Under the pieces are notes generated by a model. It was not told the origin of the DNA. It saw nothing but the letters and a program-made list of their open reading frames with translations, and ran no database searches. The translations under genes were made by a program, and so were the position numbers. This document shows positions 32,857-63,607 of a DNA stretch of 64,000 nucleotides, in pieces. Numbering within the stretch: the first letter of the stretch is position 1; each line of letters starts with the position of its first letter. Source of the stretch: Borrelia hispanica CRI (GTDB lineage Bacteria > Spirochaetota > Spirochaetia > Borreliales > Borreliaceae); assembly GCF_000500065.1 (NCBI RefSeq), contig NZ_AYOU01000159.1, positions 1 to 64,000 on the forward strand, written 5' to 3'.

Positions 32857-32900
32857 AATATAATTATATAATATAATTATATTTATTTAGGAGAATGTTT

Positions 32901-43524: not shown

Positions 43525-43603
43525 AATAGATATTAATATTGAATAATATTTTAAGTAATATTAATGTTTATATTTTAATTGATCTTGGGGAAGGGGGATT
43601 TTT

Positions 43604-45384: not shown

Positions 45385-45411
45385 ATTAAAGGACCTTTAT
45401 GGTCCTTTAAT
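45385..45411 (+). terminator. Intrinsic terminator
   Basis: ATTAAAGGACC pairs perfectly with GGTCCTTTAAT around a 5-base loop, starting one base after the stop codon at 45384. Confidence 0.8.
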
Positions 45412-45530
45412 TGTTATTAAAGGTATAAGTGTATGTGTAAGTACAGTTTTGAATTAGATAATGTGTATTTTATAAATATTTTTTTGTTTTTTTGATGCAT
45501 ATGACTTGAATTTGGAAAAGGAGAATATTT

Positions 45531-46250: not shown

Positions 46251-46442
46251 ATTGAGTTTAGATATTTATTAACAATATTTAATTTTTAAAATTAATTTAA
46301 TCATATTTATATAATTATATTGATTAATATAATAGTTGTGTTATAATTTTTAATTGTCGAATTCCAATAATTCTTGGAGTTTTAAAAGATTGGTTAATAG
46401 AATATTGATTTTTTTAATTATTTTAAATAAAGGAGATATAGC

Positions 46443-47255: not shown

Positions 47256-48076
47256 GTATTAAATTCAATATTGAAATAAATAGAAATTTGTTTATTATAA
47301 ACAATTTATATTCTCTTTTGTGTTTTGCAATGCAGCTTACTTTAACTTATGTTATTGTGGTTGCATTTTTTACATATGTATTGTTTATTTTGGTTTTGTT
47401 GTGAGATAGATATTTGTGTATGAAATTATAATTTTCTTAAATTAATTTAATTATTTGTATATAAACATTATTTATTAGTATAATTATTGTTAATAGAAAT
47501 AAACATTAATTTTTTATAAAAGGAGGTATATTTAAAAAGTCATATTTTAATATCTTTGTTATTTGGTTGATTATATTGATTACAAGTTATAAATTTAGGT
47601 GATTTAATTTTTAAATAAAATGCTTTCATTAGTAAATAGGTAGTTATATACCACAATATTATTCAAATTTTGTATAACTTGATGAATATTTAGCAATATT
47701 TAAGGTTTTCTTTAAATATAAACCTTACTAATTAATTCAACTTGATTTTTTGTTTCTCTTTTACATAATAAAAAATGTTATAAAGTTTTCTGTGGTAATG
47801 GTTGTTGGGTTATTAGAAAATATTTAGATAAAGAATTGACAATTTACAAATAAATAAGGAAGAAATTTATTTTCATAATAGATAGAAGTTTTTTATTTTT
47901 ATCTTGAGTGTTTTTATTTGGTTTAGGAATTGTATTAGTGTTTTTGTATTTTATTACTTAAAGATAAGTGTTTTTAAGTAATCATATTTATATATGATAG
48001 AAATATTGATTTGCATGCATAGCGTATAAATAAGGCTTGTGTAATAAATTTATTTTTAATTTTTTAGGGAGAATGT
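47256..48076. other. 821-bp gap with a decayed lipoprotein start
   Basis: No intact gene is seen. An A/T hairpin (TTGTTTA with TAAACAA, 47288-47304) may end the previous gene. A perfect ribosome site with a broken leader sequence lies at 47521-47602 (separate entry). TAAGGTTT (47701-47708) pairs with AAACCTTA (47720-47727). The rest is AT-rich with stops in all frames. Confidence 0.55.
47521..47602 (+). pseudogene. Remnant of a lipoprotein gene start
   Basis: AGGAGGTATAT at 47521 is followed by a frame reading FKKSYFNIFVIWLIILITSY and then, four codons on, a stop at 47600. This is a lipoprotein signal peptide in which the start codon is TTT and the lipobox cysteine (TSC expected) is Tyr. One base change each would restore both. 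No CRASP-like domain remains downstream. Confidence 0.55.
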
Positions 48077-48973
48077 ATGAAAAATTTTAGCATGACATTG
48101 GTATGTGTATTATGTTTATTATTGATTTTGTTCATAATGTTTGGTTGGGATACAGGAGTTAAGTATCATTCAGAATTTCAGAGAGAATTAGAACGTTCAG
48201 GAATACGTCCCCTAAATCCAGGCGAGATAAAAGATTCATCTATCGAAGATGAAATTTCAAAATATGAGAGATCAACTGTGCAAGATGATAGCGATGAGAT
48301 TTTGGATAATGAAAATTTGTTATCAGAGGTGCCAGATTCTTATAAAACTAGGGAACAAGCTTATGATGAACTTGAAAATAAAGTTAGAGAGCTTAAGAAT
48401 GAGTTTTTAGATAGAAGTTTACGTTTTGCTAGTGGTAAGCATCAATTTAGTATGCCTTTTTTTGAACGATTTGCTAAATTTGATGGTGATGATAAAAAGG
48501 ATATCGTTTATGCATCTTTGGGGTATGATGTTGATGTTATTAGAAAATTAGAAACGCTGATAAATAAGGTAGATCCAAATGTTCCATCTTATTTAAGTAG
48601 GCTAGATAAGGGAATTGCTTCTGGGTTATTGGATGTTTTATATAATGTTACTTATTATGTTAGAGAAGTTGTGATAAATAATCATTTAAATTTGTTTAAT
48701 TTAGGTAATATTAAGACTAGTAGTTTAATAACAGCAGATGATATTGCTTCTATTAATGTTTTTATTGATACATTAATGCATATGAGGAGAAATTTAACAT
48801 TGAAATTGGGTAGATATATTGTATTAGCAGAATCAAAAACAGATAAATTGGAGATGGAAGCTGTACTTAGAAAAATTATTGAGCAAAATGGAGATATTAG
48901 GAGATTAATTGCAAAAATAATGTTTATTTCACAATCAATTGGAAATTTGGTTAATGTGCAAACTAATCCTTAA
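48077..48973 (+). CDS. CRASP-1/PFam54-like protein without lipobox cysteine
   Basis: The ATG at 48077 follows AGGGAGAATGT. The 298-residue product begins MKNFSMTLVCVLCLLLILFIMFGWDTG, a leader in which Trp24 stands where the cysteine should be; it may be a membrane anchor. An acidic linker (about 30-95) leads to a normal domain: FSMPFFERFAKFDG, DIVYASLGYDVDVIRKLETL, ASGLLDVLYNVTYYV, MRRNLTLKLG. The domain is intact, so only the anchor mode seems changed. Confidence 0.65.
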   Translation: MKNFSMTLVCVLCLLLILFIMFGWDTGVKYHSEFQRELERSGIRPLNPGEIKDSSIEDEISKYERSTVQDDSDEILDNENLLSEVPDSYKTREQAYDELENKVRELKNEFLDRSLRFASGKHQFSMPFFERFAKFDGDDKKDIVYASLGYDVDVIRKLETLINKVDPNVPSYLSRLDKGIASGLLDVLYNVTYYVREVVINNHLNLFNLGNIKTSSLITADDIASINVFIDTLMHMRRNLTLKLGRYIVLAESKTDKLEMEAVLRKIIEQNGDIRRLIAKIMFISQSIGNLVNVQTNP

Positions 48974-49164
48974 TATTTTAATAATAGCAGTATTTTAAGA
49001 AAAAGTCGTAGAGTATTTACTTTAAATGCAGCATCTTGTATAGGAATTTTGATTTTGTTATTATGATTTAATTTTTACTTGAGTTAAATATATTAGTTGT
49101 AGTAGTATTATTTTGTTTAACTTTTATGTAAGTGTTGCTTTATTATTATAAAAAAGGGGAATAT

Positions 49165-49932
49165 ATGAAGAGAGTTATTATGGTGTTTTTAAAGGTGAAT
49201 ATTGTATTTTTGTTTTTAATGATATTCATATCTTGTGTATCAGAATATGGGGGATTCTTAGATTCAGACGCAAGAAAAGTTTATAAGGCTTTTAAAAATA
49301 AGGTTGAGAATTATAGAATAACATTTTTATCAAGATCTGATAGTCTTATCAATTTTATTGATTCAAAAATTTCTTTTTTCTCTGATGATAAAGAAGCTTA
49401 TTCAGATAAATTATTGTACTTTGATGAAGATACTACCAAACGTATTATTGTTGCTACATTGGGAGATGATGTGGGAGTTGTTCAAAGACTTATAGATATA
49501 TTATCCACATTAGATTTACGTTTTAATAAGGATGTTGGTAATTTTAATGATGATGATGTTAATGTTGCTATTAGTTTTTTAAAAGAATTGGAATATGTTA
49601 CAAAATACGGAATTATATTGTTAAATAGGCATTTAAGCAACGCAAATTTAGCTAAAATTAAAGACTATTTTAAGTTTGAAGAAGGTTTAGTGACTTTTAT
49701 TAATAATATTATGTTTCATTTAGATTATTTTATGAAGGCAAGGGAAGAGTTAATCTCAGATATTAAGCATTTTGTTAATGAGGCAGCTGCAAGAAGAGGT
49801 GATAAATTGATGATGGTAAGTTATTTAAAGAGTTTAGTTTATGATGGTATTTTGTCAAATAAAATTTTGATTGGCATTGTAGATAATGTATTGAAAATTG
49901 AAGACAAACTGAATGAGATATTGAAATCATAA
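49165..49932 (+). CDS. CRASP-1/PFam54-like lipoprotein
   Basis: The ATG at 49165 follows GGGGAATAT; the earlier in-frame ATG at 49132 has no site. The 255-residue product has lipobox IFISC (Cys24). The motif is RIIVATLGDDVGVVQRLIDIL, with Asp in place of Tyr; it is preceded by a variant IPF segment (FIDSKISFFSDD) and followed by FLKELEYVTKYGIILLNRHL and KAREELISDIKHF. A standard member with a slightly altered core. Confidence 0.65.
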   Translation: MKRVIMVFLKVNIVFLFLMIFISCVSEYGGFLDSDARKVYKAFKNKVENYRITFLSRSDSLINFIDSKISFFSDDKEAYSDKLLYFDEDTTKRIIVATLGDDVGVVQRLIDILSTLDLRFNKDVGNFNDDDVNVAISFLKELEYVTKYGIILLNRHLSNANLAKIKDYFKFEEGLVTFINNIMFHLDYFMKAREELISDIKHFVNEAAARRGDKLMMVSYLKSLVYDGILSNKILIGIVDNVLKIEDKLNEILKS

Positions 49933-50119
49933 TTTTAATTTGAAAAATTTTATTTTTTAAAGTCAATTCCATTTTATGTTTAATATAAACTTAATAGTAA
50001 AAAATTTTTTTCAATAAATTAGTTATATTGTTATTATATTGTATTGTTTTTACAATGTGATTGATAGTATAATGTATGCGTTCTAATAATAGATAGCTTG
50101 CACAAAGGAGTAGAAATAT

Positions 50120-50728
50120 ATGGATTTAAGGGAGCAAAATTTTGATGAGCTTAAAGGAATATTGATTGGTTTTAGAGAAGAACTTGAGAATGAACGTTAT
50201 GCATTTATGTCTAAACAGTCTCAATTGGATATTAATTTTAAGGGGGTATTAGATGATATTATTTATTATCAATCAGATAGAGATAAAATTTATACTATGT
50301 TAGGATATGATGTTGAAATTATTGGTAGATTAGGTGTGATTTTTAGTAAATTGAATTTTAAACATGTCTATGATAGAGACACAAGACTTGTTATGAATTT
50401 ATTAAATGGTTTAATGCGAGTCGCACATTCAATTCAGACTCTCTTTAAAGATATTTTTAATCAAACGAAATTGGATTTGCTTCAGTTAAGAGATGTTGAG
50501 GATATTAAAAAAATTGTTATTTATCTAGAACAGTTTATAGAAATAATAAAAGATTTGATGTTGCAAGTTAAGGCTATCATTGTGTCTGTTGCATCAAAAA
50601 TTAATGAAGATAGCATATTAAAAGAGTTGAGTAGAGTGGTTGCTAAGTTAGATTCAAAATTTAATAAAGGTGTTCGTAATATTCATTATCTTTTATTTGA
50701 TATTATAGAGTTAGTTGATTTTTTGTAA
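50120..50728 (+). CDS. CRASP-1/PFam54-like protein without signal peptide
   Basis: AAGGAG stands 11 bases before the ATG. The 202-residue product starts MDLREQNFDELKGIL, directly at the first domain helix, with no hydrophobic leader. The domain is complete: INFKGVLDDIIYY, DKIYTMLGYDVEIIGRLGVIF, VMNLLNGLMRVAHSI, a KIVIYLEQFIEII helix and a final helix. The upstream DNA shows no signal peptide in any frame. It is closely related to the next gene, which lacks a leader too. The protein should be cytoplasmic unless exported by another path. Confidence 0.65.
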   Translation: MDLREQNFDELKGILIGFREELENERYAFMSKQSQLDINFKGVLDDIIYYQSDRDKIYTMLGYDVEIIGRLGVIFSKLNFKHVYDRDTRLVMNLLNGLMRVAHSIQTLFKDIFNQTKLDLLQLRDVEDIKKIVIYLEQFIEIIKDLMLQVKAIIVSVASKINEDSILKELSRVVAKLDSKFNKGVRNIHYLLFDIIELVDFL

Positions 50729-50902
50729 AAGTAGTAAATTAAAATGATATTGGATATTGTATTTTTTGTTTTGAATATGAAATTAAAAAATTTTAAATAA
50801 TATTTGTTTGTTAATTCAATTTAATTAATTGATGTTTATGTAATGTATACTGTAAGTAGTGTGTATTTATGTTGGTAAATAGTGTTATGAAAGGAGTAAT
50901 GT

Positions 50903-51508
50903 ATGGATGAAATGAAATCTTCTTTTGGTATTTTAAGTAACGTATTGATGAAATTTAAGCAAGAGCTTGAAAGTGATCGCGTTGCATTTTTTGCCAAAGA
51001 AGAGAGGATAAGTATTAATTTTAAAGGGGTTTTAAATGACATTTATTATCCTTCAGATTTGGATGAGGTTTATGAAGCATTAAGATATGATGTTGAGATT
51101 ATTCTTAGTTTGGGCAGAGTGTTTCAAATATTGAATTTTAAGAATATGGGGGACAGAGATACAAGAATTATTACTAATTTGCTAAATGGTTTAATGTACA
51201 TTGCTCATTCAATCCAAATTTTTTTTGAAGATGTTTTAAGTAAAGCTAAATTAGAAATGCTTAAATTTAGAGATGAAGATGATCTTAAAAAAATTATTAA
51301 GTATTTAGTTCAATTTATAGATGCTGTTAAAGATTTAATGTCTAAGTTTAGAGATGTTATTGTTGTTATTGCATCAAAGACCAATGAGGATGATATATTA
51401 AATGAACTAGAGAAAGTTATAGCTAGTTCAGATTCAAATTTTAATAAGGAAATGCGCAATATCCATTATATTTTATTTGATATTGTAGAGTTGGTTGATC
51501 TTTTATAG
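50903..51508 (+). CDS. CRASP-1/PFam54-like protein without signal peptide (paralogue of previous)
   Basis: GAAAGGAG precedes the ATG. The 201-residue product shares about the same length and clear similarity with the 50120-50728 product throughout (INFKGVLNDIYYP, DEVYEALRYDVEIILSLGRVF, NLLNGLMYIAHSI, NEDDILNELEKVI). It starts MDEMKSSFGILSNVL with no leader. The pair arose by duplication after the leader was lost, or from a leaderless ancestor. Confidence 0.65.
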   Translation: MDEMKSSFGILSNVLMKFKQELESDRVAFFAKEERISINFKGVLNDIYYPSDLDEVYEALRYDVEIILSLGRVFQILNFKNMGDRDTRIITNLLNGLMYIAHSIQIFFEDVLSKAKLEMLKFRDEDDLKKIIKYLVQFIDAVKDLMSKFRDVIVVIASKTNEDDILNELEKVIASSDSNFNKEMRNIHYILFDIVELVDLL

Positions 51509-51631
51509 TTGGTTTTATGTTTTAAATTTAGGTATTTTTAATCTATATATTTATATATATAGTAATTTGACATGTTGCTATAGATTATATTACTATTTGT
51601 TAAAATATTGATAATATTAGGGGAGAAATTT

Positions 51632-52525
51632 ATGAGAAGGTTTTGTATTTTCTTGTGTGTGTTAAATTTTATTTTAGGGTGCAGATCTGATGCTGTTTTG
51701 AATGATGGAAAGAAGATTAATAATGATAAAGAAGCATTTTCAACATTTGAATTGATTCCATTTTTTAGAAGTTCAGTAAGTAGAGCCTATCATGATTTAG
51801 AATCTCTAGTTTCTTTTTTTAAATTTTTGGTTGATAATGAATATATAAATAGTGGTTTGAGTAAGAGTTCTATTTCTGTTATTGATCAATATAGTAAGTA
51901 TATTGTTAAAGAGTTGTCATGTTATGGTAAGATGTCAACTATTCAAAAGGGATACTTGGAATTTGATACTTATTGTGGTGGGGTTAACAAGAGTCACAAT
52001 ATTTATATGGTTTTAGGATATGATCTTGATTGCATTAATGCATTAAGAGAGATACTTCATACATTAAATGTGGGATTAACCTTTGTTGATATACCTCTCT
52101 CAAAGAGAAATATAGATAATGTGGATGTAAGAATTGCATCTCTTTTATTATTTAATTTAGAGCAACTTGCGTATCATATTGATTTTGTTGTTAATATCTT
52201 TAGTGATGAAGTGTTAGAAAAAATTAAGATGAATAATGAGATTACAGTGGAAAATGTTTCGAGTATTACCAATGTGTTATTATTATTTATGCAATTAAGA
52301 GATGAATTGATAGTGGATTTTAAAAATGTTATAAATAGTGCAGCAAAGTTAAAACGTTACAGAAGGTTGATGGAGGCTGAACTTGGTAAGATTATTAAAG
52401 ATGGAAAGATTAAGAAAAAAATTGCTGATAGTGCTGATTTTGCAAAAACTATTCAAGAATTAGTTATTGCAATTGTTAAGGATTTGCCCAAGGTAGATAT
52501 GTATATAAATGCAAGGAGAATATAA
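51632..52525 (+). CDS. CRASP-1/PFam54-like lipoprotein
   Basis: The ATG at 51632 follows GGGGAGAAATTT. The 297-residue product has lipobox FILGC (Cys17). An N-terminal extension contains a long helix (SVSRAYHDLESLVSFFKFLV), and the IPF motif is replaced by YLEFDTYCGGV, with a second cysteine. HNIYMVLGYDLDCINALREIL carries a third cysteine within the core motif. The helices ASLLLFNLEQLAYHI and MQLRDELIVDFKN are as in the siblings. Confidence 0.65.
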   Translation: MRRFCIFLCVLNFILGCRSDAVLNDGKKINNDKEAFSTFELIPFFRSSVSRAYHDLESLVSFFKFLVDNEYINSGLSKSSISVIDQYSKYIVKELSCYGKMSTIQKGYLEFDTYCGGVNKSHNIYMVLGYDLDCINALREILHTLNVGLTFVDIPLSKRNIDNVDVRIASLLLFNLEQLAYHIDFVVNIFSDEVLEKIKMNNEITVENVSSITNVLLLFMQLRDELIVDFKNVINSAAKLKRYRRLMEAELGKIIKDGKIKKKIADSADFAKTIQELVIAIVKDLPKVDMYINARRI

Positions 52526-52631
52526 TTGTTTATGCAAATATATAATTATTGAATCATTATAATTTTTAAATTTTATTGTTGAAATTTGTGTATATATGTT
52601 TATATATTTATATATGAAAAAGGGAATATTT

Positions 52632-53426
52632 ATGAGAAGAATTAATATTATATTATGTATATTATTCATCTTATCTTGTAGTGAAAAGAATGTTGATAAG
52701 TCAAGTGAAAATGTGAAAGATTCAGATGATAAAGATGTATGTGCTAATTTATCATTTATAAGGCTTGTAGCCATTGAGCCTCGTTATGTGACTTTTTATA
52801 AGATTCATAGGTTAGTCAAAGAGTATAGAGATAAACTTCATGGTAGGACATTTAAATTAAAAGAGGGCGAGTCTAAGCCTGAATTTAAGTTTCCCTTATC
52901 AAAGATATTTCCAGTCTATAGTGATGCAAATTTTATTTTTGAAAGTTTAAACTATAATGTTAAAGCGATTTATGGTTTGGAATATGTGTTTCATGCATTA
53001 ATATTGCCGACCTATAGTAGTATTTTGGGAGATGTGTCGCGTTTGTCTATTTTTTTATCTTATTTAGACGAGAATTCAAAAGTTTTAAAAAGGCTTGTTA
53101 ATGATGATTTTAATGATGAAACTTTAGAGCGACTTAAGACCACGAAGACAGATAGAGAGCTTGCTTTAATTTATTATTATTTAGTTGGTTTTATAAATAA
53201 AAAAGCAAGTTTGGATCGCAATCTTGAAACGATATTAGTTAAGTTGGTAACTGAAGGTGCTGGTAGAGAGGCTGTGTTGCAAATTTTTAATAATAGTATT
53301 GTGAATATTTTTTCAAAATTGCCTGAAGGAGAATTAGTGGTAAGCATACCAAATACTAGACTTATTAGAGATTTTGAAGACCTAAAAAGTGGACCATTAA
53401 CTATAATTAAATGTTTGATTAAATAA
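52632..53426 (+). CDS. CRASP-1/PFam54-like lipoprotein
   Basis: The ATG at 52632 follows AAAGGGAATATTT; the longer frame from 52596 adds a non-leader stretch. The 264-residue product has lipobox FILSC (Cys16), FKFPLSKIFPVYSD, NFIFESLNYNVKAIYGLEYVF, LVNDDFNDETLERLKTTKTDRELALI and a C-terminal helical region. The TDRELxxxxY segment is shared with the product of 46443-47255. Confidence 0.65.
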   Translation: MRRINIILCILFILSCSEKNVDKSSENVKDSDDKDVCANLSFIRLVAIEPRYVTFYKIHRLVKEYRDKLHGRTFKLKEGESKPEFKFPLSKIFPVYSDANFIFESLNYNVKAIYGLEYVFHALILPTYSSILGDVSRLSIFLSYLDENSKVLKRLVNDDFNDETLERLKTTKTDRELALIYYYLVGFINKKASLDRNLETILVKLVTEGAGREAVLQIFNNSIVNIFSKLPEGELVVSIPNTRLIRDFEDLKSGPLTIIKCLIK

Positions 53427-53763
53427 ATATGATGTACTCTTTACTACAGGTATTTTCTTTAATTATCAAACTTATTTAATAACATTTGAAATTTTATAAT
53501 AATAAGTAATCTTTAAGTATTTTGACATGAGAGAGACTATTTTTTGTTTACATGTTGATTAATATTTTAGTTTTTATTTGTCTTAATATTATTAACTTAG
53601 AGTGATTTTGATTCATTTGATAAGAATGTTTGAAAGTTGTGATGCGATTTATAACATTTTCTTGAATAAATATAATTATATTATATAATAATAAGTATTA
53701 AATTGTATTGATATGATTAAATATTGAATTTAAAAATATGTAATCTTAAGGAAGGAGAAGTAT
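53427..53763. other. Intergenic region with promoter-like sequence
   Basis: No gene is seen in these 337 bases. A promoter-like pair lies at 53662-53689. Confidence 0.45.
53662..53689 (+). promoter_or_regulatory. Possible promoter of the gene at 53764
   Basis: TTGAAT (53662-53667) and TATATAAT (53682-53689). The TTATATAATAATA core and the following TATTAA match the stretch before the gene at 43604. Confidence 0.4.
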
Positions 53764-54834
53764 ATGAAAGTATTAGGTTTAATATTTTATTTGTTGTGTG
53801 TAATATATATGAGTTCTTGTAGATATTGGCCTTTAGAGGAGAGAATGGCGAGAGACTTTAACCAAAAAGATGAGGTTGGTGGTACACGTAATTTAAGAAA
53901 TTTGGGTAAATTAAATCAGTCAGCAGTGACAAATCTGTCATTTATAGATTCAGATTTATGGGATGAAATCTTTAATTATCCGGAAGATAGTGTTAAGAAT
54001 AGTGATTATGGGGAGCAAATAGTATTTCCAGAAAATGAATTTGATTTTCCGTTAGATGTAGAAAAACAACAGAGAATAGATGATTTTCAAGTCAATGATG
54101 CTAGAGAGGAGACTAATGATAGAGATGAAATTGATAAAGATAATTTAGAGAAGAGAGACAGGGGTTCTGGAAGTAAAATTTTAGAAGGAAGGGAAGTTGA
54201 ATTTAGAGATAATGTTGAGAATGATGATGGCGATTTGGGTGGTGAGAGAAAAGTTTATGATTATCTTTTGGAGAAAGTACAAACTTATAGTGCAAAGCTT
54301 TTAAATGAACGTGATCACTTTTATTTAACTAAATTATTCTCTAATATTCCTTTTGATAAAATCTCTTCAGATTTTAGTTCTGAGGAAAAGCAGGATAAAG
54401 TTTATGCAGGATTAGGATATAATGTTGGTCTTATTGAAAGATTGGGTACTTTATTTGATAAGTTATTGTTAACAAATATTTCTAATGGAATTTTAGAGGT
54501 CTTTGATGATGTGTTATCAGTTTTAACTGAACTATCACAATATCCCAAAGATTCTTTAGAGCTTTTAAATGAAGAAATTCTGGCAAATATTAGAGAACAA
54601 GATATTGACATTAAGCGTATTAGTGATGCTTTGGATAATATTGTTCAAGTAAAAGAAGAACTTGTTGAGGATATTAGGAATAATATAGAATCGTTGGGCT
54701 CTATTGATGATGAGAGTGAGATAATATCTTTATTAAAAGAGGATTTTGGAAGGGGTAAATATAAGCTGAAAATTAGTGCTTTAAGAGAGGTTGCTATGTT
54801 AATTTCAAATTTGGTTGTAAATATTAAACATTAA
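53764..54834 (+). CDS. CRASP-1/PFam54-like lipoprotein with long acidic linker
   Basis: AAGGAAGGAG precedes the ATG. The 356-residue product has lipobox YMSSC (Cys19) and a linker of about 140 residues rich in Asp, Glu, Asn and Arg. The domain lies at about 165-356: SNIPFDKISSDFSS, DKVYAGLGYNVGLIERLGTLF, VFDDVLSVLTELSQY, VKEELVEDIRNNIESL. The long tether would hold the domain far from the membrane. A strong terminator overlaps its stop codon. Confidence 0.7.
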   Translation: MKVLGLIFYLLCVIYMSSCRYWPLEERMARDFNQKDEVGGTRNLRNLGKLNQSAVTNLSFIDSDLWDEIFNYPEDSVKNSDYGEQIVFPENEFDFPLDVEKQQRIDDFQVNDAREETNDRDEIDKDNLEKRDRGSGSKILEGREVEFRDNVENDDGDLGGERKVYDYLLEKVQTYSAKLLNERDHFYLTKLFSNIPFDKISSDFSSEEKQDKVYAGLGYNVGLIERLGTLFDKLLLTNISNGILEVFDDVLSVLTELSQYPKDSLELLNEEILANIREQDIDIKRISDALDNIVQVKEELVEDIRNNIESLGSIDDESEIISLLKEDFGRGKYKLKISALREVAMLISNLVVNIKH

Positions 54835-54859
54835 ATGGGCTATAAGCCCATTTAATGTT
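54827..54859 (+). terminator. Strong intrinsic terminator overlapping the stop codon
   Basis: AACATTAAATGGGC pairs perfectly with GCCCATTTAATGTT around a 5-base loop, followed by TTTGTTTATT. The stop codon at 54832-54834 lies in the left arm. Confidence 0.85.
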
Positions 54860-55070
54860 TTTGTTTATTATTTTGTTATTTTATTATTTGCGGAATATTA
54901 AAAAATTTTCTTTAGTTTTTTGCATTAAAAGTTATAGTATTCCTTGAATTTTGATGAAATTATGCATAGATTAAATTATTACAATATTATATTGTATATA
55001 AATATATATTATATATCTTATTATATTGGTTACTATATAGTATATTAATTGTAATAGGGAGAAGAAACGT

Positions 55071-55811
55071 ATGAAATTATTTGGTTTATTGACAGGGACT
55101 CTGGTTTATAGTGTGGGAAGTATTGCAAAAAATCGACCTGTTAGAAAGGTATTTGATTTAAAACGTAATACAAGTAGTGGTAATGTACGTGTGCAAGGGT
55201 CTTTTAATATTAGTGATAAAGAGCAGATTTTTTATACTCTAAAGACAAGAGTGATTGCTTACAGAGAAGAAATTAATGGTTTACATTCGCAATTTAATTT
55301 AAGTGAATTGTTGTTAAATATTCCTTTTAAAAAAATCTCACCAGATTTTGCCGATTCGGATAAGCAGTATAAAATTTATTCTAGTTTGGGATATGATATT
55401 GAGATTATTAAACAATTAGGAAATGTATTAAATAAGCTTGATTTTAATAGTCCGCATTTCATTAATATTGATGCTGATGTTGCTTATAAATTATTAAGCT
55501 TTTTAAGTAATATTACAGATTATGCTAAAACACTTGTTAATTATTATTTAAGTGATGAAACTTTACTCCATATTAAATCTAGCAAAGATAAATCGCGAAT
55601 TACTGAGATTTATAATCATTTGGAAGACTTTATTACTTTAAGGGAAAATTGTATGTCTAAAATTAAGTTACAAGTAGCATACTTAGAATCAAAAATTACT
55701 AGAGAGTCCGTATTGACAGGGATGAAGGAAATGGTTGCTTATGAGGGTGAAATTGGGCAGGATATAAATTTAATGAGTAATATTGCAATTACAATTTGGA
55801 GTCTTAGTTAA
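55071..55811 (+). CDS. CRASP-1/PFam54-like protein with non-lipoprotein leader
   Basis: The ATG follows AGGGAGAAGAAACGT. The 246-residue product starts MKLFGLLTGTLVYSVGSIAKN: a short leader with no cysteine, so it is not a lipoprotein; cleavage after SIA is possible. The domain is complete: LNIPFKKISPDFAD, YKIYSSLGYDIEIIKQLGNVL, YKLLSFLSNITDYAKTLV, YLSDETLLHIKSS, LRENCMSKIKLQVAYLESK. Confidence 0.65.
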   Translation: MKLFGLLTGTLVYSVGSIAKNRPVRKVFDLKRNTSSGNVRVQGSFNISDKEQIFYTLKTRVIAYREEINGLHSQFNLSELLLNIPFKKISPDFADSDKQYKIYSSLGYDIEIIKQLGNVLNKLDFNSPHFINIDADVAYKLLSFLSNITDYAKTLVNYYLSDETLLHIKSSKDKSRITEIYNHLEDFITLRENCMSKIKLQVAYLESKITRESVLTGMKEMVAYEGEIGQDINLMSNIAITIWSLS

Positions 55812-56044
55812 AACGTTGGTTTATTGATGTTTAAAATTAAAATTTATTAAATATAATTTATATGTAAATGAATAGTGTGTATATAATAAAGTTTATTTAT
55901 TATTCTATTAATTTTTAATTTTGTTTATTATTATTTAATAATCTCATACTTATTATTTTTTTGTAATATATGTTATATTATAAATGATGCTATATTATAT
56001 TAATTACAATATGATAATAAGCTTAAATAAAAGGGGGGTGATTT

Positions 56045-56929
56045 ATGAGAGTAATGGGAATGTATTTTTTGTTTTGCTTGATTATGATATCTTGTAGTAA
56101 CGATCTTTTAGAGGATTTAAGAAAAAACCCGAAGTTGGAGGGGCAATTGAATGTTGGAGGTAGAGCTGTTTATGTTTTGGGGAAATTGGATAATAGGGGT
56201 AGTGTTGGTAAAGCAGGTAGTACAGTTGATGGGTCAACAAATGGTGGCAGTCCTGGTCCAGTGGAAGTGACGATTAATGGTTCAGAACAAGGCTTAATGG
56301 ATGAGCTTTATAATATGCTTTTAAATAAAACGGCGGGTTATAAAGCTAAACTTGTAGATGAGGCTTCTCAAAGTAATATGTCTCGTAATCCATATAATAT
56401 TCCTTTTAGTAAAATAGATTTACGATATGATGATTTAAAACGACAATCAGATTTTTATGCTGGATTAGGATATGATGTTCAGGCTATTAATGATCTGAGT
56501 TTTATATTCAGTAATTTGAATTTAGAAAAAGAAATGCCCTCGGATGACAGATCTACTAAAGGTAAAAATGATGAGTGGATGCTTGCTTATAACTTGCTTG
56601 TTCTTGTGTGGCAAGTTGGGTATTATTCTGAAAAATTTATGAGTTATTTAGATAGTGCAAGCCTTAATAAATTTTATAGGGATAAAAATAAAGAAAAGCT
56701 TTTGTCAATTAGTAAGTGTTTCGATGAGTTTGTTAAAGTTAGATCTCATGCTGTAGAGACTATAAAAAAAGAATTGGCATTATTAAAATCATTAGTGAAG
56801 AGAGAAGAATTTTTAGATAGAATGAAAGCAACACTTGGTTTAGTTGACGGTTATGAGAACACTATTCAGTCAGTATCTTATGAAATCGTCTCATTAGAAG
56901 GACAATTATTAAGATTGAAGAATAGTTAA
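56045..56929 (+). CDS. CRASP-1/PFam54-like lipoprotein
   Basis: AAAGGGGGGTGATTT precedes the ATG. The 294-residue product has lipobox IMISC (Cys17) and a Gly/Ser/Asn-rich linker (about 35-85, including STVDGSTNGGSPG). The domain reads YNIPFSKIDLRYDD, SDFYAGLGYDVQAINDLSFIF, a loop with Asp/Lys/Glu, MLAYNLLVLVWQVGYYSEKF, VRSHAVETIKKELALLKSL. The Gly-rich linker differs from both the acidic and the collagen-like tethers of other members. Confidence 0.7.
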   Translation: MRVMGMYFLFCLIMISCSNDLLEDLRKNPKLEGQLNVGGRAVYVLGKLDNRGSVGKAGSTVDGSTNGGSPGPVEVTINGSEQGLMDELYNMLLNKTAGYKAKLVDEASQSNMSRNPYNIPFSKIDLRYDDLKRQSDFYAGLGYDVQAINDLSFIFSNLNLEKEMPSDDRSTKGKNDEWMLAYNLLVLVWQVGYYSEKFMSYLDSASLNKFYRDKNKEKLLSISKCFDEFVKVRSHAVETIKKELALLKSLVKREEFLDRMKATLGLVDGYENTIQSVSYEIVSLEGQLLRLKNS

Positions 56930-56936
56930 ATTAAAG

Positions 56937-56975
56937 AAAAATCTTGAGATTTTTAATTGGAATCCCAAGATTTTT
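56937..56975 (+). terminator. Intrinsic terminator
   Basis: AAAAATCTTG pairs with CAAGATTTTT; one mismatch then GATT/AATC extends the stem. It is followed by more T residues and lies just after the stop at 56929. Confidence 0.75.
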
Positions 56976-57131
56976 TTTAAATTTATAATTAAATCTCAAA
57001 TAACAAAAAGTAAAAAAATATTAGCAAAATTTTCTTCTTTTTATATAAATCATTTAGTAAATATCATTATATTGCGTTATATTGAGTGGTAAATATTGGT
57101 TGGTGTAAACGCTAAGGGAAAGGAGAAGTTT

Positions 57132-58175
57132 ATGCAAGGATTGGGTATAATTTTATATGCATTTGGTATGATATCTTGTAAGCAACTTAAATTGTCAGAA
57201 ATTACCAGTTTTTTAGATATGCATCAATCAAAAGATAATTTAAAAAATTATTCACTTGAAAAAACACTTAATCAAACAGATTTAAAGGATCAAAAATCTT
57301 CAGTTTTGGGTGAAGTAAAACTTGAATCAAAAGAGATTGTATCAAAAGACAGCGATTCAACCAAAGTTATTGCAGAATCTCTAGATTTAAGTAAGAAGGT
57401 TTTAGAGAAGGATGTTTCAGATAAAAAAGTTGGGGATAGAGTGTTTGGAGATAATAAATCTGCAAACAATAAAAAGAGTGATGCTAAGAAACTTGAAAGT
57501 AAAAGTAAGTTTAGATCAAATTTAAAGATTGATGGAAAAGTAAAGTTATTAATTCCTAAAAAAACAGCACAAGAAGTGTATGCTGCATTTGAATCTAGAG
57601 TATTAAAGTATAAATCAAAACTTATACATGAACGCAGACGATTTAATCCAAGGCATTATTCGTTAAGTATTCCTTTTAAAAAGGTGTCACCAATTTTTAC
57701 TTCTGCAGAGCAACAAGCAGATATTTATGCTGCTTTGGGGAGTGATGTTAAAGTTATTACGGGACTAGAGAGAATATTAAATAATTTGGATTTAAAAGAT
57801 CCTGCTCTTTATTCTTATGGTGATACAAAAGTTGCAGCTCATTTATTTAATCTATTATTAAATATTTCAAATTATACAAGAAAACTTGTCAATAATCATT
57901 TAAATACTGCAAATTTAGATCGAATTAAGAATAGTAAGAGCGTGGAAGATATAATTGCACTTAATGATCTCTTAGAAAAATTTATGATAGAGAGAGACAA
58001 TGCAGTAAAGATAATTCAAGAACAAATACTCTCATTAGCATCGAAAGATAAAAAAGAAGTGTTGAGTGGGTTAAAACAAACTATTGGGCTTGAGAATAAT
58101 TCTAGTAGAGAGATTCAGCATGCATCTTATTCTATTATAGGAATGGTGACTCGCATAGCATATTTAGTAAAATAA
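57132..58175 (+). CDS. CRASP-1/PFam54-like lipoprotein with Lys/Ser-rich linker
   Basis: The ATG at 57132 follows AAAGGAGAAGTTT; the upstream in-frame ATG at 57096 gives no leader at its start. The 347-residue product has lipobox GMISC (Cys16), a linker of about 120 residues rich in Lys, Ser and Asp, and a domain with LSIPFKKVSPIFTS, ADIYAALGSDVKVITGLERIL, AAHLFNLLLNISNYTRKLV, HLNTANLDRIKNSKS, IERDNAVKIIQEQILSLASK. It is a close relative of the 55071 product in the domain. Confidence 0.7.
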   Translation: MQGLGIILYAFGMISCKQLKLSEITSFLDMHQSKDNLKNYSLEKTLNQTDLKDQKSSVLGEVKLESKEIVSKDSDSTKVIAESLDLSKKVLEKDVSDKKVGDRVFGDNKSANNKKSDAKKLESKSKFRSNLKIDGKVKLLIPKKTAQEVYAAFESRVLKYKSKLIHERRRFNPRHYSLSIPFKKVSPIFTSAEQQADIYAALGSDVKVITGLERILNNLDLKDPALYSYGDTKVAAHLFNLLLNISNYTRKLVNNHLNTANLDRIKNSKSVEDIIALNDLLEKFMIERDNAVKIIQEQILSLASKDKKEVLSGLKQTIGLENNSSREIQHASYSIIGMVTRIAYLVK

Positions 58176-58194
58176 TTTTTCAATATCCTATATA

Positions 58195-58231
58195 AATAAT
58201 GGCTACTTCTAATTTAGAGGTAGCTATTATT
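58195..58231 (+). terminator. Intrinsic terminator
   Basis: AATAATGGCTACTTCT pairs with AGAGGTAGCTATTATT with two G-T pairs, loop of 5, followed by TAATTAAGTTT. It lies 20 bases after the stop at 58175. Confidence 0.7.
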
Positions 58232-58490
58232 TAATTAAGTTTATGAGTAATTTTTATTTATTAAAATTTACAATTAATTATATTTTTTAAAATAAGTATC
58301 CTGTTGTTTGTTTTTTTGATATATATTGTCTTTTGTATTAGATTAATATCTATAAAATTTATTTTTTTAAAGTTTAAATTGATTATTATTTGTGATAATA
58401 CTTTATATTGTAATTAATATTAAAACTTATTAATTATTATAGTATTACTATTATTATTATTATCATGTAATTTTAAAAAAGGAGAATTGT

Positions 58491-58670
58491 GTGAAACAAA
58501 TAGGTGTTTTGTTATTTATAATATGTGTACTGTATGTGTTATGTATACTCAGTATTTTGTCTTGTAAGCAGGATATTGCTGAGAACTTGCAACAAGATGA
58601 CATATTGAGATTAAACAAAATTAATTTAAATTCAACTAACAATAAAAGGCACTCTTATTGGCTATCTTGA
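58491..58670 (+). pseudogene. Truncated lipoprotein gene, 59 codons
   Basis: GTG at 58491 with AAAAGGAG upstream. The frame encodes a long leader ending LSILSC (Cys25), then KQDIAENLQQDDILRLNK and a stop at 58668. It has the leader of a full array member but no CRASP-like domain, and the DNA after the stop holds none. It could be a minimal lipoprotein, but a truncated gene is more likely. Confidence 0.55.
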
Positions 58671-59059
58671 AATTAAAATATAAGACATTTATTTAAATAT
58701 TATAAAGTTTGAAATTCTATTTTGATTTCTATTTTGAGTATATCTATTAATATTTTATTTGTTTATATTGAGAGTCTGATATTAAAGATAGGCTAATTGA
58801 TCATTATGTATATTAATGTAATATATCCCAATTAATTGATTAATCAATTAATTGGGTATTTTAATATTGATTATAGTAAGAAATATGCATAAATATCATT
58901 TAATATATTGTTTTAATTATTTTGATAATTTGTGTTATAATGATTATAAACTAATACTTCTTATTGTTTTAAACTGATTATACTTAGATAATAAGTATTG
59001 ATATATTAATGTTCTATTAATGTATTTTTAGTTATATAGGAGAAGTGAGGAGTGGTTGA
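58671..59059. other. Intergenic region with a 30-bp perfect palindrome
   Basis: 389 bases of AT-rich DNA. The palindrome lies at 58827-58856. A GTTATAAT sequence near 58933-58940 may be the -10 region of the collagen-like lipoprotein operon that follows. Confidence 0.5.
58827..58856. terminator. Perfect 30-bp palindrome, possible terminator
   Basis: The half CCCAATTAATTGATT is followed directly by its reverse complement. In RNA it can fold into a hairpin, followed by TATTTTAA, so it may end the transcript of the truncated gene 160 bases upstream. As DNA it could also be a dyad binding site. Confidence 0.5.
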
Positions 59060-59836
59060 ATGAAATTTATATGTATGATAATGAGTATTACATTTGGTGT
59101 TTTGTTATTTATGGGTTGTGATGCTACAGGCCCTTCAGGTCCAATGGGGCTTGCAGGAGGTGATGGGGTTGATGGGAAACCGGGTAAGGCTGGACGAGGT
59201 GATCTTGCGATTTTGTATATGAATTTTTTTAATCTGAGTAGGTCATATAATGCTAATAAAGAAAAATTTGATCCTGCAGTTAATAATTTTGATGCTGAAG
59301 CTTTTTTTTCTCATAGTGTATTTGAAGATAAATTTTCGGATAGTAATGTTGAGAAAAGACATGATTTTTATGCTAGCTTAAAATATAACATTGAGGATAT
59401 TAAGGTAGTAGAAAAAGTTGTAGAGATATTGGTGAGTAGTAAGGATGAAATAATTAGTAGTAATGCTTTACATCTATTGAATGTTTTAGTTGATAGTGCT
59501 CAATATGTAAAATCAGTTTTGTCTGCATTGGAACTTAATTTGGGTGTATTAAATGAAATCGATGATGTTGCAGGTATTAGCGACCTTAATATTATGTTAA
59601 TGATGATGTGGACGGGGAGAGAAAAGGTAATAGATGATATTAGATTTTTGTTTAGTATGTTAAAGGGACATATCAGTGTTGAAAATCCAAATATGCGTAA
59701 TATTATGGATTCATTAAATGTAATTATTACTAAATCAGGAAATATTTATAAACAAGTTAATTTAGGTTTTGATAGTTTGGCTAGTTTAAAAGATGCAATT
59801 TTAAATAAAATAAGAAATTTAACACTAAGAGTTTAG
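59060..59836 (+). CDS. Collagen-like, CRASP-1/PFam54-like lipoprotein (1 of 3)
   Basis: The 258-residue product has leader MKFICMIMSITFGVLLFMGC (Cys20). Three residues later begins an unbroken run of eight Gly-X-Y triplets (about 24-47: GPS, GPM, GLA, GGD, GVD, GKP, GKA, GRG), then the domain. The domain has NFDAEAFFSHSVFED in place of the IPF motif and HDFYASLKYNIEDIKVVEKVV, then LLNVLVDSAQYVKSVL and TGREKVIDDIRFLFSML. The next gene starts 30 bases on, so three such genes form an operon. The triplets may let the proteins trimerise as a stalk. Confidence 0.75.
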   Translation: MKFICMIMSITFGVLLFMGCDATGPSGPMGLAGGDGVDGKPGKAGRGDLAILYMNFFNLSRSYNANKEKFDPAVNNFDAEAFFSHSVFEDKFSDSNVEKRHDFYASLKYNIEDIKVVEKVVEILVSSKDEIISSNALHLLNVLVDSAQYVKSVLSALELNLGVLNEIDDVAGISDLNIMLMMMWTGREKVIDDIRFLFSMLKGHISVENPNMRNIMDSLNVIITKSGNIYKQVNLGFDSLASLKDAILNKIRNLTLRV

Positions 59837-59866
59837 TTTTTATAGATTCTTAAAATGGGAGTTTTG

Positions 59867-60628
59867 ATGAAAAGAATGTATGTATTAATATGTGTTGTAA
59901 ATTTTTTAGTGATATTGGGATGTGTTGGGCCTACTGGGATACAGGGTCTTAGGGGTCCTGATGGAAGAGATGGAGAGAAGGGACAGGATTATCATGGTGA
60001 TGTTGAATTGTTAATGTCAACCTTTTTAATCCTTAAGAGTTCTTATAATTATAATCTTGGTGATGTTGCAAAAATTAAAGATTCTATTGAAAAGTCTTCT
60101 ATATTTTCACATGTTGTATTTGAGGATAAATTTCAATCAGATAAAAATAAAGATTATATTTGTATTGCAGTAAAGAGTAATGAATTAGTTTTTGAGGATG
60201 TATTGAAGATTTTACGATTATTAGTAGGAGGTCGTAGTTCTACTTCTCAAGATCATAATGTTGCTAAAAAATTTTTGAATGTTCTAATAGATAGTGCCAG
60301 CTATATTGATGAGGTTATAAACTTAGATTTATTTACCCCTGATTTTAACTTAGATAGGTTGCGCAATTTTGACAAGTCTATTGTTTTTGAACTTAATTTT
60401 CTTTTGATAGGAATGTTAGACTTAAGAGAAAGTATTGTTAATGATATTAAAATATTACTTAAAAATCCAAATATTTCAAAATTGGGTTCATCAAGTCCTT
60501 CAAATCTTAAAGTTGAGTTAGCCCCGATTATTGATATTGGTGGTGATATTTATGAAAAAATTTATGGAAATAATTATAGCTTGCAAAGTTTGAAAGATCA
60601 AATTATTAAAATCAATACCAGTGTCTAG
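59867..60628 (+). CDS. Collagen-like, CRASP-1/PFam54-like lipoprotein (2 of 3)
   Basis: The ATG at 59867 has GGGA upstream; an in-frame ATG at 59855 is too close. The 253-residue product has lipobox VILGC (Cys19), one Val, then seven triplets (GPT, GIQ, GLR, GPD, GRD, GEK, GQD), then YHGDVELLM and the domain. The core motif is degenerate here (DYICIAVKSNELVFEDVLKIL), but the KSSIFSHVVFEDKFQSD segment matches the previous protein closely. Confidence 0.75.
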   Translation: MKRMYVLICVVNFLVILGCVGPTGIQGLRGPDGRDGEKGQDYHGDVELLMSTFLILKSSYNYNLGDVAKIKDSIEKSSIFSHVVFEDKFQSDKNKDYICIAVKSNELVFEDVLKILRLLVGGRSSTSQDHNVAKKFLNVLIDSASYIDEVINLDLFTPDFNLDRLRNFDKSIVFELNFLLIGMLDLRESIVNDIKILLKNPNISKLGSSSPSNLKVELAPIIDIGGDIYEKIYGNNYSLQSLKDQIIKINTSV

Positions 60629-60655
60629 TATGTTGAGGATGTAAAAGGGGTTTTT

Positions 60656-61444
60656 ATGAAAAAAATGTATGCAGTAATTTTTATTTTAATGTTGTTAGTA
60701 TTTGGATGTAAAACAGGAGAACGTGGTATAGCTGGATTTCTGGGTCATCATGGTAAAGATGGACTTAGTGGTCATGATGGAAGGAGTGATGTTGAGTTGC
60801 TTAAAGCAAATTACTTCAAATTTAAAAGAATGTGTCATGCCAATTATGAGTCATTTAAGTTACAAAAGAAAGATTTTGATAAAGAAATTCCATTTGACAA
60901 TATTATATTTGATAATGAATTTAAAACTGACAGCCAAAGAAATAGTATTTATGCTAGTTTAGATTATAATGTTGAAGATATTGAGATTTTAAAAAATCTA
61001 ATAGCTAGATTATTGGAATTTATTGATGAGGATAAGAAACAAAATATTAAAGCTTTATTATTTTCTTTAAGAGATATTGACCAATATGTTTCTGATGTTA
61101 TAACAGCAAGTGATGTTGTTATTAATGATTTTAATCTTGCTAATATTAAGAAAGGGAATAATATGGATATTGTTAGTTCACTTAATGCTATGTTTAGTGA
61201 ACTATCATATAGAAGGACAAGTGTAATTAAAGATATTAGAAATATTTTTAGTCGCGTAAAAAAATTTATGGAAGTTGCTTCTGCTGATCGTATATCAAGT
61301 ATTAATGGTAATATAAGGACCATTGGTTCGAATACAGGAATTATTTATAAAAAAATTCATGTGGGTGATGAGAGTCTTTTAGGGCTAAGAAATGATATTA
61401 TAAAAGAATTGGAGGAATTAAAAAGAACATTATGGTTAAAATGA
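60656..61444 (+). CDS. Collagen-like, CRASP-1/PFam54-like lipoprotein (3 of 3)
   Basis: AAAGGGGTTTTT precedes the ATG, 27 bases after the previous stop. The 262-residue product has lipobox LVFGC (Cys18), two residues, then eight triplets (GER, GIA, GFL, GHH, GKD, GLS, GHD, GRS), then DVELLKANYFKFKR. The domain is more typical than in its two neighbours: KEIPFDNIIFDNEFKTD, NSIYASLDYNVEDIEILKNLI, ALLFSLRDIDQYVSDVI, RRTSVIKDIRNIFSRVK. Confidence 0.75.
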   Translation: MKKMYAVIFILMLLVFGCKTGERGIAGFLGHHGKDGLSGHDGRSDVELLKANYFKFKRMCHANYESFKLQKKDFDKEIPFDNIIFDNEFKTDSQRNSIYASLDYNVEDIEILKNLIARLLEFIDEDKKQNIKALLFSLRDIDQYVSDVITASDVVINDFNLANIKKGNNMDIVSSLNAMFSELSYRRTSVIKDIRNIFSRVKKFMEVASADRISSINGNIRTIGSNTGIIYKKIHVGDESLLGLRNDIIKELEELKRTLWLK

Positions 61445-61582
61445 ATTTTAATTATAGTAAATTGTTATTCTTTGATTCTAGATGTATTTATATATTTGGT
61501 ATATTCTCTTTAGAAGTAGTATAATTACATTTAGTGGCTTTTCTATATGAGTTATACGAAATGCTGAGAAGGAGGGTATTTA

Positions 61583-62392
61583 ATGATAAAGATTTACGTA
61601 TTAATTTTTATGTTTTATGCCCTAGATTTATTTTTGGCGTGTAGGGTACATAATGATTCGTCGGATGATGTTGTTGTGATGAATTTTGATGATTTATCAC
61701 AAATTGGCAGCACGTCAGCTCCATCACAATTACCTCCGATTAGAGATAAATATCCTCAAGCAAATGTGGCTTATGATAAATTAATGAAAAGTTTATATGC
61801 TCTTAAGGCTTCTTATAGTGAAAATCGTGATGCTTTTTTGCCAGTTAAATTGCAATTTGACAATGGTATTTTTGGCAGACATAATATGGATTTTAGTGGT
61901 GATGAGTCAAAAGATGATGTTTATAGTAGTTTAAAGTATGATTCTTTGAGTATTGCAAATTTGAAAAAAGTGATAGAAACTTTAATATCTGCTAATCATG
62001 AAGATATTGTTTTAATGTTGTTGTACCGCTTGAGAGCTAGTTCTATCTATATAAGAGAAGTTATAGATGAAAATTATGGAATTTTTAGTCAGGATAATTT
62101 GAGTATGATGCGATGTAGTAATAATATAGCAGGTATTAATTTAATTAAGTCTTATTTGGATGAAATGCTGAAACTGCGAAATACTATTGTGAACGAAATT
62201 AAAAATATGCTAGATGGTGCAGTAGATGTTATAAATGATAATGATAAATTTTTACTTAAGTTAAATTTAGTTACTGATTCTCAAGGATATATTAGAGAAA
62301 TGATTAATGGTTTAAAAAGTCTTAGATATTTAAGAATTGAAGTTGAAAAAGAACTTGATAATTTAAAATTGTATTTATTAATGTCAAAATAA
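61583..62392 (+). CDS. CRASP-1/PFam54-like lipoprotein
   Basis: GAAGGAGG precedes the ATG. The 269-residue product has lipobox LFLAC (Cys20) and a Ser/Pro/Asp-rich linker without triplets. The domain is related to the collagen-like trio: FDNGIFGRHNMDFSGD, DDVYSSLKYDSLSIANLKKVI, LLYRLRASSIYIREVIDENYG, LRNTIVNEIKNMLDGAVDV. A TATAAT at about 61522, 140 bases after the trio, suggests a separate promoter. Confidence 0.7.
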   Translation: MIKIYVLIFMFYALDLFLACRVHNDSSDDVVVMNFDDLSQIGSTSAPSQLPPIRDKYPQANVAYDKLMKSLYALKASYSENRDAFLPVKLQFDNGIFGRHNMDFSGDESKDDVYSSLKYDSLSIANLKKVIETLISANHEDIVLMLLYRLRASSIYIREVIDENYGIFSQDNLSMMRCSNNIAGINLIKSYLDEMLKLRNTIVNEIKNMLDGAVDVINDNDKFLLKLNLVTDSQGYIREMINGLKSLRYLRIEVEKELDNLKLYLLMSK

Positions 62393-62603
62393 TTATTTTT
62401 TTTAATGTTTTTTTAAAGTTATGTATTTGATATTACTCTTTTAGTTAAAAGAGATTAACGCCTTTAATTAAATTAAAAATATTTATTATTATTAATTTAA
62501 TCTTTATTAATTAATAATAATGAAATATAATGTTTCAATGTATTTCATTACATATGTCATGGCATTGTTTTGTAGTATTTCTATATTAAAAGGAGCTATT
62601 TTG

Positions 62604-63473
62604 ATGAAAATAATATGTCGAATATTTTGTATTTTGAGTTGCTTTATGATAATAGGGTGTTCATTTGATGGGCAGTTATCACGTGATGCAAGTGGTGAAA
62701 TTTACCCATATTTGAGGTATGCTAAGGGTAATAAGGGATCTGGTGCTTTATCAAGTTTTGGTGTAGATATAATATTGCAAAAGCAAGGCAATAAAGGTTC
62801 TCTAGCTTATTCTAACTTACTTCAAAGCATTAACAATATCAAAAAGACATTAAAGTTTGATTGTGTGGAGTTTGATGAATCTCAGTTTGATGATATGTTT
62901 CAAGTTTGTTCTTCGTATAGTGATAAAATTAAGTATGATCTAAAAGTTAAAAGAGAAATTTATGCTAGTTTAAATTATGATGTTAATTCTTTAAATAATT
63001 TAAAGACAATAGTAAAAAGTTTGGTAAAGTCGGGTGAAAAGAATGGTTGTGATTTAGTTGTTACTTTACTTAGGTACTTAAGTTTTAGTACTCAATATGT
63101 AAGTGAAATTGTAGATGAGAAAGGGTTTATTTTCAATGTAGCTAATCTAAATATATTGAAAAGTAGAAATAATTTAGATGGTTTAAGAGATCTTAAATCT
63201 AAATTGGATACTGTTTTGTTGCAACATAATGCTTTAGTAAATAAATTAAATGCAATTTTGCAACGTTCAGTGGGAATATATTCTGATGCAGCAGATCCTC
63301 AGAGTAAGGCTAGCGCGATAAGCATTTATCTTAGCAATATGATTAGTAGGGATAGTGATATTTATACTAGGATTTTTGATCCTGTTGATTCTACAGCTGC
63401 TACTGGTGATAGATTAAGTTTACAAAGCTTAAAAGCTGTAATTATGAATAAAGTGAATGAATTGATCAAATAG
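62604..63473 (+). CDS. CRASP-1/PFam54-like lipoprotein
   Basis: The ATG at 62604 follows AAAAGGAGC; the frame is open upstream to 62520 but without a ribosome site. The 289-residue product has lipobox MIIGC (Cys19), a linker with scattered glycines (AKGNKGSGALSSFG) and a domain with FDESQFDDMFQVCS, REIYASLNYDVNSLNNLKTIV, LLRYLSFSTQYVSEIVDEKG and LLQHNALVNKLNAILQR. It groups with the 61583 product. Confidence 0.7.
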   Translation: MKIICRIFCILSCFMIIGCSFDGQLSRDASGEIYPYLRYAKGNKGSGALSSFGVDIILQKQGNKGSLAYSNLLQSINNIKKTLKFDCVEFDESQFDDMFQVCSSYSDKIKYDLKVKREIYASLNYDVNSLNNLKTIVKSLVKSGEKNGCDLVVTLLRYLSFSTQYVSEIVDEKGFIFNVANLNILKSRNNLDGLRDLKSKLDTVLLQHNALVNKLNAILQRSVGIYSDAADPQSKASAISIYLSNMISRDSDIYTRIFDPVDSTAATGDRLSLQSLKAVIMNKVNELIK

Positions 63474-63607
63474 TTTTATATGTATTTTCTTTACTAATTT
63501 AATGTTTAAGTATTTATTGTGTTTATATAAGATTAGTGGGTGTTATTTTGAATGTTAATTTTTTGTTATTAATTTTTTAGTTTTGTTATTCTTGAGTAGA
63601 GAGATGT

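Follow-up and report, generated by a model that had tools for sequence, protein, structure and literature searches.

PFam54/CRASP proteins are central to the complement resistance of Borrelia and to its life in ticks, and those with solved structures are discussed as monomers or dimers. The PFam54_60/CspA-like lipoproteins of Lyme Borreliella (BBA64, BBA66, BBA73 and BBE31) are lipid-anchored and share one helical fold, and PFam54 genes are arrayed both on the lp54-like replicons of Borreliella and on the megaplasmids of relapsing-fever species. The same fold and anchor are found in ChiA-E of B. recurrentis, proteins that inhibit complement and bind plasminogen and for which the crystal structures of ChiA and ChiB display an eight-helix CspA-like fold (PMC13128870). 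The paper that describes the Chi proteins makes no mention of collagen (PMC13128870). Collagen-like proteins are also known from bacterial surfaces. Scl1 and Scl2 of Streptococcus and Lcl of Legionella carry a Gly-X-Y stalk with a helical or globular head. Burkholderia, whose envelope is of the Gram-negative type, has Bucl8, which contains a collagen-like region and is predicted to be an outer-membrane lipoprotein (PMC4565658).

The locus analysed here combines these two known kinds of protein. The window, by which we mean the whole stretch of 64,000 nucleotides that was analysed, belongs to a megaplasmid of relapsing-fever Borrelia; the protein encoded by nrdF, at position 42307, is 98.8% identical to its counterpart on B. 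recurrentis A1 pl124. A head-to-tail array of lipoprotein-type genes extends from approximately 43600 to 63500, and within it three neighbouring genes, here called A, B and C, encode a collagen-like tract between the lipid anchor and a PFam54-like domain. The DNA of this stalk region is 92.5% identical to that of pl124. Like the proteins of Lyme Borreliella and the Chi proteins, the products of A, B and C are predicted to be lipid-anchored and to adopt the same helical fold. The Borreliella proteins differ in having no collagen-like tract: none of 18 Borreliella genomes gave a match to PF01391 at E<=1. ChiA-E lie in a megaplasmid region that is missing from strain A1, in which A, B and C are present. 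Compared with Scl and Lcl, A, B and C are not LPXTG-anchored, bear a PFam54 head and have just 7-9 triplets. They share with Bucl8 the predicted lipoprotein anchor and the type of envelope, but Bucl8 has an efflux-channel domain and repeats of the single type GAS, and is not part of a surface receptor array (PMC4565658).

The first-pass annotation had described three adjacent genes 27-30 bases apart, each encoding 7 to 8 unbroken Gly-X-Y triplets near a lipidated cysteine, and the open reading frames agree with this. Gene A (59060..59836, + strand) encodes a signal peptide, the lipobox LFMGC, eight triplets, a GRGD junction and a PFam54-like helical domain; its collagen-like stalk (59129..59200, +) follows the lipobox cysteine as C-DAT-GPS GPM GLA GGD GVD GKP GKA GRG-D. 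Gene B (59867..60628, +) has the lipobox VILGC, seven triplets plus one broken triplet (YHG), and the helical domain, its stalk (59927..59989, +) reading C-V-GPT GIQ GLR GPD GRD GEK GQD-YHGD. Gene C (60656..61444, +) has the lipobox LVFGC, eight triplets and the helical domain, with the stalk (60716..60787, +) reading C-KT-GER GIA GFL GHH GKD GLS GHD GRS-D. All three products begin with a signal peptide. In each the run is unbroken, starts at most five residues from the lipid cysteine and is followed by a domain of about 215 residues.

The A-B junction (59837..59866, +) is 30 bp long and the B-C junction (60629..60655, +) is 27 bp, with an RBS-like GGGAG ahead of the ATG of B and GGGG ahead of that of C. 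The start of B is likely the ATG at 59867, which has GGGAG upstream; B might instead begin at 59855, which would lengthen it and reduce the A-B gap to 9 bp. Scans for promoters and terminators found promoter-like sites to be no commoner than in shuffled sequence. The next array gene (61583..62392, +), 138 bp beyond C, has an acidic, non-collagen tether and a domain of the same superfamily. At its end, just ahead of the first helix (window 59195-59209), the stalk of A bears (G)RGD in all orthologues. RGD occurs at the same place in B of the American species and of one further genome (G008), and C has GRSD; RGD here could be an integrin motif or a mere helix cap.

Composition cannot explain these runs. 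Shuffling the whole protein 20,000 times never produced a Gly-X-Y run of more than five triplets from A, B or C, and when the 32 post-cysteine residues were shuffled 200,000 times the observed run was reached eight times for A, five times for B and never for C. Elsewhere in the window's array, the runs of the other 16 genes are 1-4 triplets long. The array-wide count that the first-pass annotation proposed covered 244 array ORFs from 12 genomes or records and was bimodal, with runs of 1-3 in 198 ORFs and of 8-38 in 44; a run of four and a run of five occurred in one ORF each. Sibling genes do use other tethers at the stalk position, as stated earlier, and these tethers show no Gly-X-Y periodicity. 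The Pfam Collagen model (PF01391) scored the window copies at 13.6-17.2 bits (B 16.5, C 17.2), below its curated cut-off of 27.2 bits. One further gene, at 46443, had been put forward as a short, degenerate Gly-rich version of the stalk. We rejected this candidate and regard it as ordinary Gly-rich sequence, because its run is only four triplets long, its orthologue in B. recurrentis has the sequence TGLAEGGGRYSS, and the domain falls elsewhere in the tree.

Comparison between species separates the glycines from their neighbours. For this comparison, the end of the stalk served to align 12 orthologues of A, 11 of B and 11 of C. None of the 22 glycine columns of the stalks varied, a figure to be read with the caution that the glycine run itself was used to place each sequence in the alignment. 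Between pairs of sequences, residues differed in 0 of 1287 comparisons at the G position; the figure was 51-63% for X and 55-73% for Y, and the third codon bases of the glycines differed in 49-61% of the pairwise comparisons. In the domains of these proteins, invariance extended to only 4 of the 24 glycines present in the window copies. The residues at X and Y are those of a collagen-like sequence. Collagens are expected to carry Pro, Leu, Phe and Glu at X, and Arg, Met and Thr at Y. In the short stalks, the X-over-Y counts were 65:17 for Pro, 42:8 for Leu, 17:0 for Phe and 12:3 for Glu, while the Y-over-X counts were 46:18 for Arg, 15:0 for Met and 11:0 for Thr; these counts pool related sequences, so that p-values would overstate their independence. 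Since glycine is invariant while X and Y diverge and the third bases of its codons vary, the alignments point to purifying selection on glycine alone, which is the signature of a triple helix. Together with the collagen-type X and Y residues, this suggests that the structure requires glycine in each third position, and a triple helix is the best-supported reading of that requirement.

Homologues without the glycine periodicity would have spoken against the collagen-like stalk, as the first-pass annotation pointed out, yet every A, B and C orthologue is periodic, and stalk length hardly varies between species (approximately 7-9 triplets). The last stalk glycine is absent from every B orthologue and kept in C. 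Losses were confined to side copies: the tandem copy of A that B. hermsii and B. nietonii carry, a B. coriaceae protein of group D (described below), and a broken D gene of B. fainii. The A duplicate lies directly upstream of A (L005 16624-17487 in B. hermsii, L009 11196-12071 in B. nietonii) and carries the decayed tract GASGETSGSAGTEGNVEEPGKKAGRGD, a natural example of a lost stalk.

The assignment of the head to the CRASP/PFam54-like family, as first proposed, relies on profile, structure and tree. Direct scores were low, since PF05714 (PFam54_60; curated cut-off 27 bits) gave 18.3 bits for A, 19.9 for C and no match for B, while the neighbouring gene at 62598 passes with 73.7. When a profile of A, B and C was compared with one of the array members above that cut-off, HHalign returned a probability of 99.8% and an E-value of 1.2e-28, the 241 aligned columns including the signal peptide. 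A search of PDB sequences with the domain recovered no PFam54 chain at E<=1, and its collagen matches were due to the stalk alone, so that a fold search was needed. AlphaFold2 models (pLDDT around 83), built from window and B. recurrentis sequences only, had BBA64 as the top PDB match for C (pLDDT 83.5 overall; Foldseek probability 1.00, TM 0.58 by target) and BBE31 for A (Foldseek probability 1.00, TM up to 0.73 by target), with modest Foldseek E-values of about 1e-2. Together with their place inside the array tree, these predictions indicate that A, B and C belong to the PFam54 family and fold. The stalk had a pLDDT below 50 in the monomer models, as expected for a single chain, and such models are uninformative on oligomers. 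The Chi proteins, PFam54_60 members encoded on the same replicon, offer, by analogy, a family precedent for function and are not evidence that A, B and C act alike.

The array was gathered from B. recurrentis, B. hermsii, B. turicatae, B. coriaceae, B. fainii, B. nietonii, B. parkeri, B. venezuelensis, B. puertoricensis and two further genomes, and a tree was built from the domain alone, with the stalk columns excluded. It displayed the orthologous groups A (99/92), B (100/97), C (98/91) and D (97/93), with B and C as sisters. One branch holds 45 stalk-bearing proteins together with three stalk-less relatives (support 79/80 in the careful tree, 95 in FastTree). Stalk presence needs three state changes on this tree, most simply one gain and two losses, although at a support of 79/80 a single origin is unproven. 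A, B and C adjoin in the same order in 11 relapsing-fever Borrelia genomes or records, bearing out the three-gene cluster seen in the window. The gaps, measured with a simple start-choice rule, are 9-45 bp between A and B and 26-53 bp between B and C, whereas most other array neighbours are 103-1263 bp apart. This spacing suggests that the three genes are probably co-expressed as a single operon.

In the American species examined, C is followed by genes of the D group, the intact members of which have 9-38 triplets. There are 9 and 11 triplets in B. hermsii, 9, 11 and 38 in B. nietonii, 18 and 18 in B. puertoricensis, and 23, 29 and 35 in B. venezuelensis, B. turicatae and B. parkeri, respectively; the B. 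coriaceae member has none. No D gene occupies the position after C in the window lineage, in B. recurrentis or in the two further genomes, which is why the gene at 61583 directly follows C here. The African B. fainii keeps nine triplets in A and is missing B and C. Its D gene (L008 9631-11480) is split into two annotated pieces, with the stalk down to five triplets.

The D members with at least 18 triplets that were tested scored 36-65 bits on Pfam Collagen, and the 11-triplet members 21-22. Several D proteins are labelled 'collagen-like protein' in the NCBI annotation. The D group goes beyond what the first-pass annotation had observed, as does a separate collagen-like lipoprotein that consists almost wholly of Gly-X-Y, with about 50 triplets (GEK/GPA repeats) following the lipobox, and has no PFam54 domain. 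The latter (L043 1399-1932 (+), L046 1306-1890 (-); B. turcica lp129 NZ_CP028885 114308-114835) sits beside guaA in B. turcica and in another Borrelia genome (G010). On the NCBI models for Scl and Lcl, the tracts of D and of the B. turcica type reached 44-95 bits, far under the family cut-offs of 325-500.

A tblastn search with A and C matched 15 relapsing-fever Borrelia records. Records of the megaplasmid type from B. miyamotoi, B. anserina, B. turcica and from reptile isolates, present in the collection searched, gave no match. C was matched in 9 of 18 Borrelia genomes, one of them by a weak 25-bit domain match only. A search for related loci with C alone returned B. recurrentis only, and none was found among the viral contigs searched.

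We consider it reasonably probable, from the sequence features above, that the tract forms a triple helix close to the membrane, a stalk that brings the chains together as trimers and projects the PFam54 domains of A, B and C. The tether of an array lipoprotein would thus have become a short collagen-like triple helix. A triple helix rises by about 0.86 nm per triplet, so that three lipid-anchored chains winding 7-9 triplets together would lift the head by about 7 nm. Carried on this stalk, three helical domains of the PFam54 type would stand clear of the membrane as a multivalent, surface-exposed head. The D proteins would represent the same module lengthened to as many as 38 triplets, or about 30 nm, and these long paralogues (18-38 triplets), which lie just after C and score as collagen, support the stalk reading. 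A ligand of host or tick origin may be bound, and complement would be the first candidate given the family. Seven or eight triplets are a small number for a helix that lacks hydroxyproline, and such a helix alone would probably be unstable at 37 C; anchoring of the three chains in the membrane by lipid should favour an otherwise marginal helix. The Burkholderia study cautions that a triple helix may fail to form when the tract is short (PMC4565658), and BBA73 and ChiA, relatives of known structure, have been suggested to form dimers, not trimers (PMC13128870). With 7 K/R-G-D/E charge pairs against the 5.9 expected from triplet shuffles, no significant enrichment was seen.

A short hydroxyproline-free helix would be more stable at tick temperature (around 22 C) than at 37 C, and assembly may therefore be temperature-dependent. 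In an array study of B. turicatae, with probes for only 112 of 155 ORFs, bta022-bta042 were up-regulated at 22 C compared with mouse blood (PMC4741519). Counting back from nrdF (bta048), A-D would correspond to approximately bta026-031, inside the up-regulated block, which makes a role at tick temperature plausible.

The same features could be those of a single-chain spacer, a flexible or polyproline-II-like tether without a triple helix that plays the same part as the tethers of its siblings. The siblings do have acidic or Lys/Ser-rich tethers at that place, the Gly-X-Y tract is short, and the pLDDT of the stalk is compatible with such a tether. However, a flexible tether needs no glycine at exactly each third residue, the 22 of 22 invariant glycines amid diverging neighbours have no parallel in the sibling tethers, and paralogues of 18-38 triplets would be hard to account for, so that we think this explanation improbable. 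Mutation alone could also generate periodicity, through neutral slippage of a 9-bp DNA repeat. The near-identical GPQ units of the D stalks were probably lengthened in this manner. For A, B and C, slippage is scarcely credible and was rejected: their units are not DNA repeats, their glycine codons differ, X and Y diverge and their lengths are near-constant. Mimicry of host collagen or C1q, in which the stalk would serve mainly as a ligand for integrins, C1r/C1s or collagen receptors, recalls the adhesins Scl and Lcl, which the D and B. turcica-type tracts resemble, and RGD at the stalk end of A is shared by all orthologues. This RGD is located at a predicted helix start, outside any known exposed loop. 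Moreover, the X and Y residues of A, B and C vary freely between species, leaving no fixed receptor motif, and the stalk is membrane-proximal, all of which makes mimicry very unlikely.

The triple-helical reading leaves room for a variant in which A, B and C each supply one chain to a mixed ABC molecule. In C1q, three chains (A, B and C) from three genes have equal collagen stalks and globular heads; C1q is eukaryotic and hydroxylated, with a far longer helix and unrelated heads, and the likeness goes no further. A heterotrimer would explain why three adjacent genes with equal-length stalks are retained together. The three distinct orthologous groups, with fixed order and tight spacing in 11 genomes or records, are in line with it, as are stalks of approximately 7-9 triplets in A, B and C where D varies from 9 to 38, and the final glycine that distinguishes C from all B orthologues. 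Nevertheless, B. fainii has A and neither B nor C, and charge-pair counts display no consistent preference for ABC over AAA, BBB or CCC. If A, B and C did co-assemble, they would constitute a natural heterotrimeric bacterial collagen, whereas a review describes prokaryotic collagen-like proteins as homotrimers (PMC8968730). We regard the heterotrimer as unlikely. Its stricter form, an obligate ABC helix that forms at the temperature of the tick and loosens at that of the mammal, thereby switching the valency of the PFam54 heads, is decidedly doubtful.

We found no PMC paper on collagen-like stalks in this array, in a literature search that covered few subscription journals, which agrees, within that scope, with the earlier remark that such a stalk was not known in PFam54-like proteins. 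The tract itself is already recorded by software, as NCBI labels some relatives 'collagen-like protein'. The one 'collagen-like protein' named in another paper comes from B. parkeri, where its gene belongs to block D of the megaplasmid and not to CRASP block A (PMC10580987). If the triple-helical stalk is correct, its conservation implies that relapsing-fever species, unlike Lyme species, present PFam54 domains in a multivalent, stand-off manner, and spirochetes would join the organisms with selected collagen-like surface proteins.

Further features of the window were recorded. Two short array members of approximately 200 amino acids (50120-50728 and 50903-51508) have neither signal peptide nor lipobox and have orthologues in other species; from their sequences, they are possibly non-exported PFam54-like proteins. 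Two other array members (48077-48973 and 55071-55811) have a hydrophobic N-terminus with no lipobox cysteine at the expected place, and are conserved in other species. Near-identical TnpB-like RNA-guided endonuclease ORFs (1942-3075 and 19614-20747) bracket a block of minus-strand lipoprotein genes, and a protein with tandem PNYDRENYSGNRGQR-type repeats (33400-33800, ORF 32895-34022) is encoded among phage-like genes.
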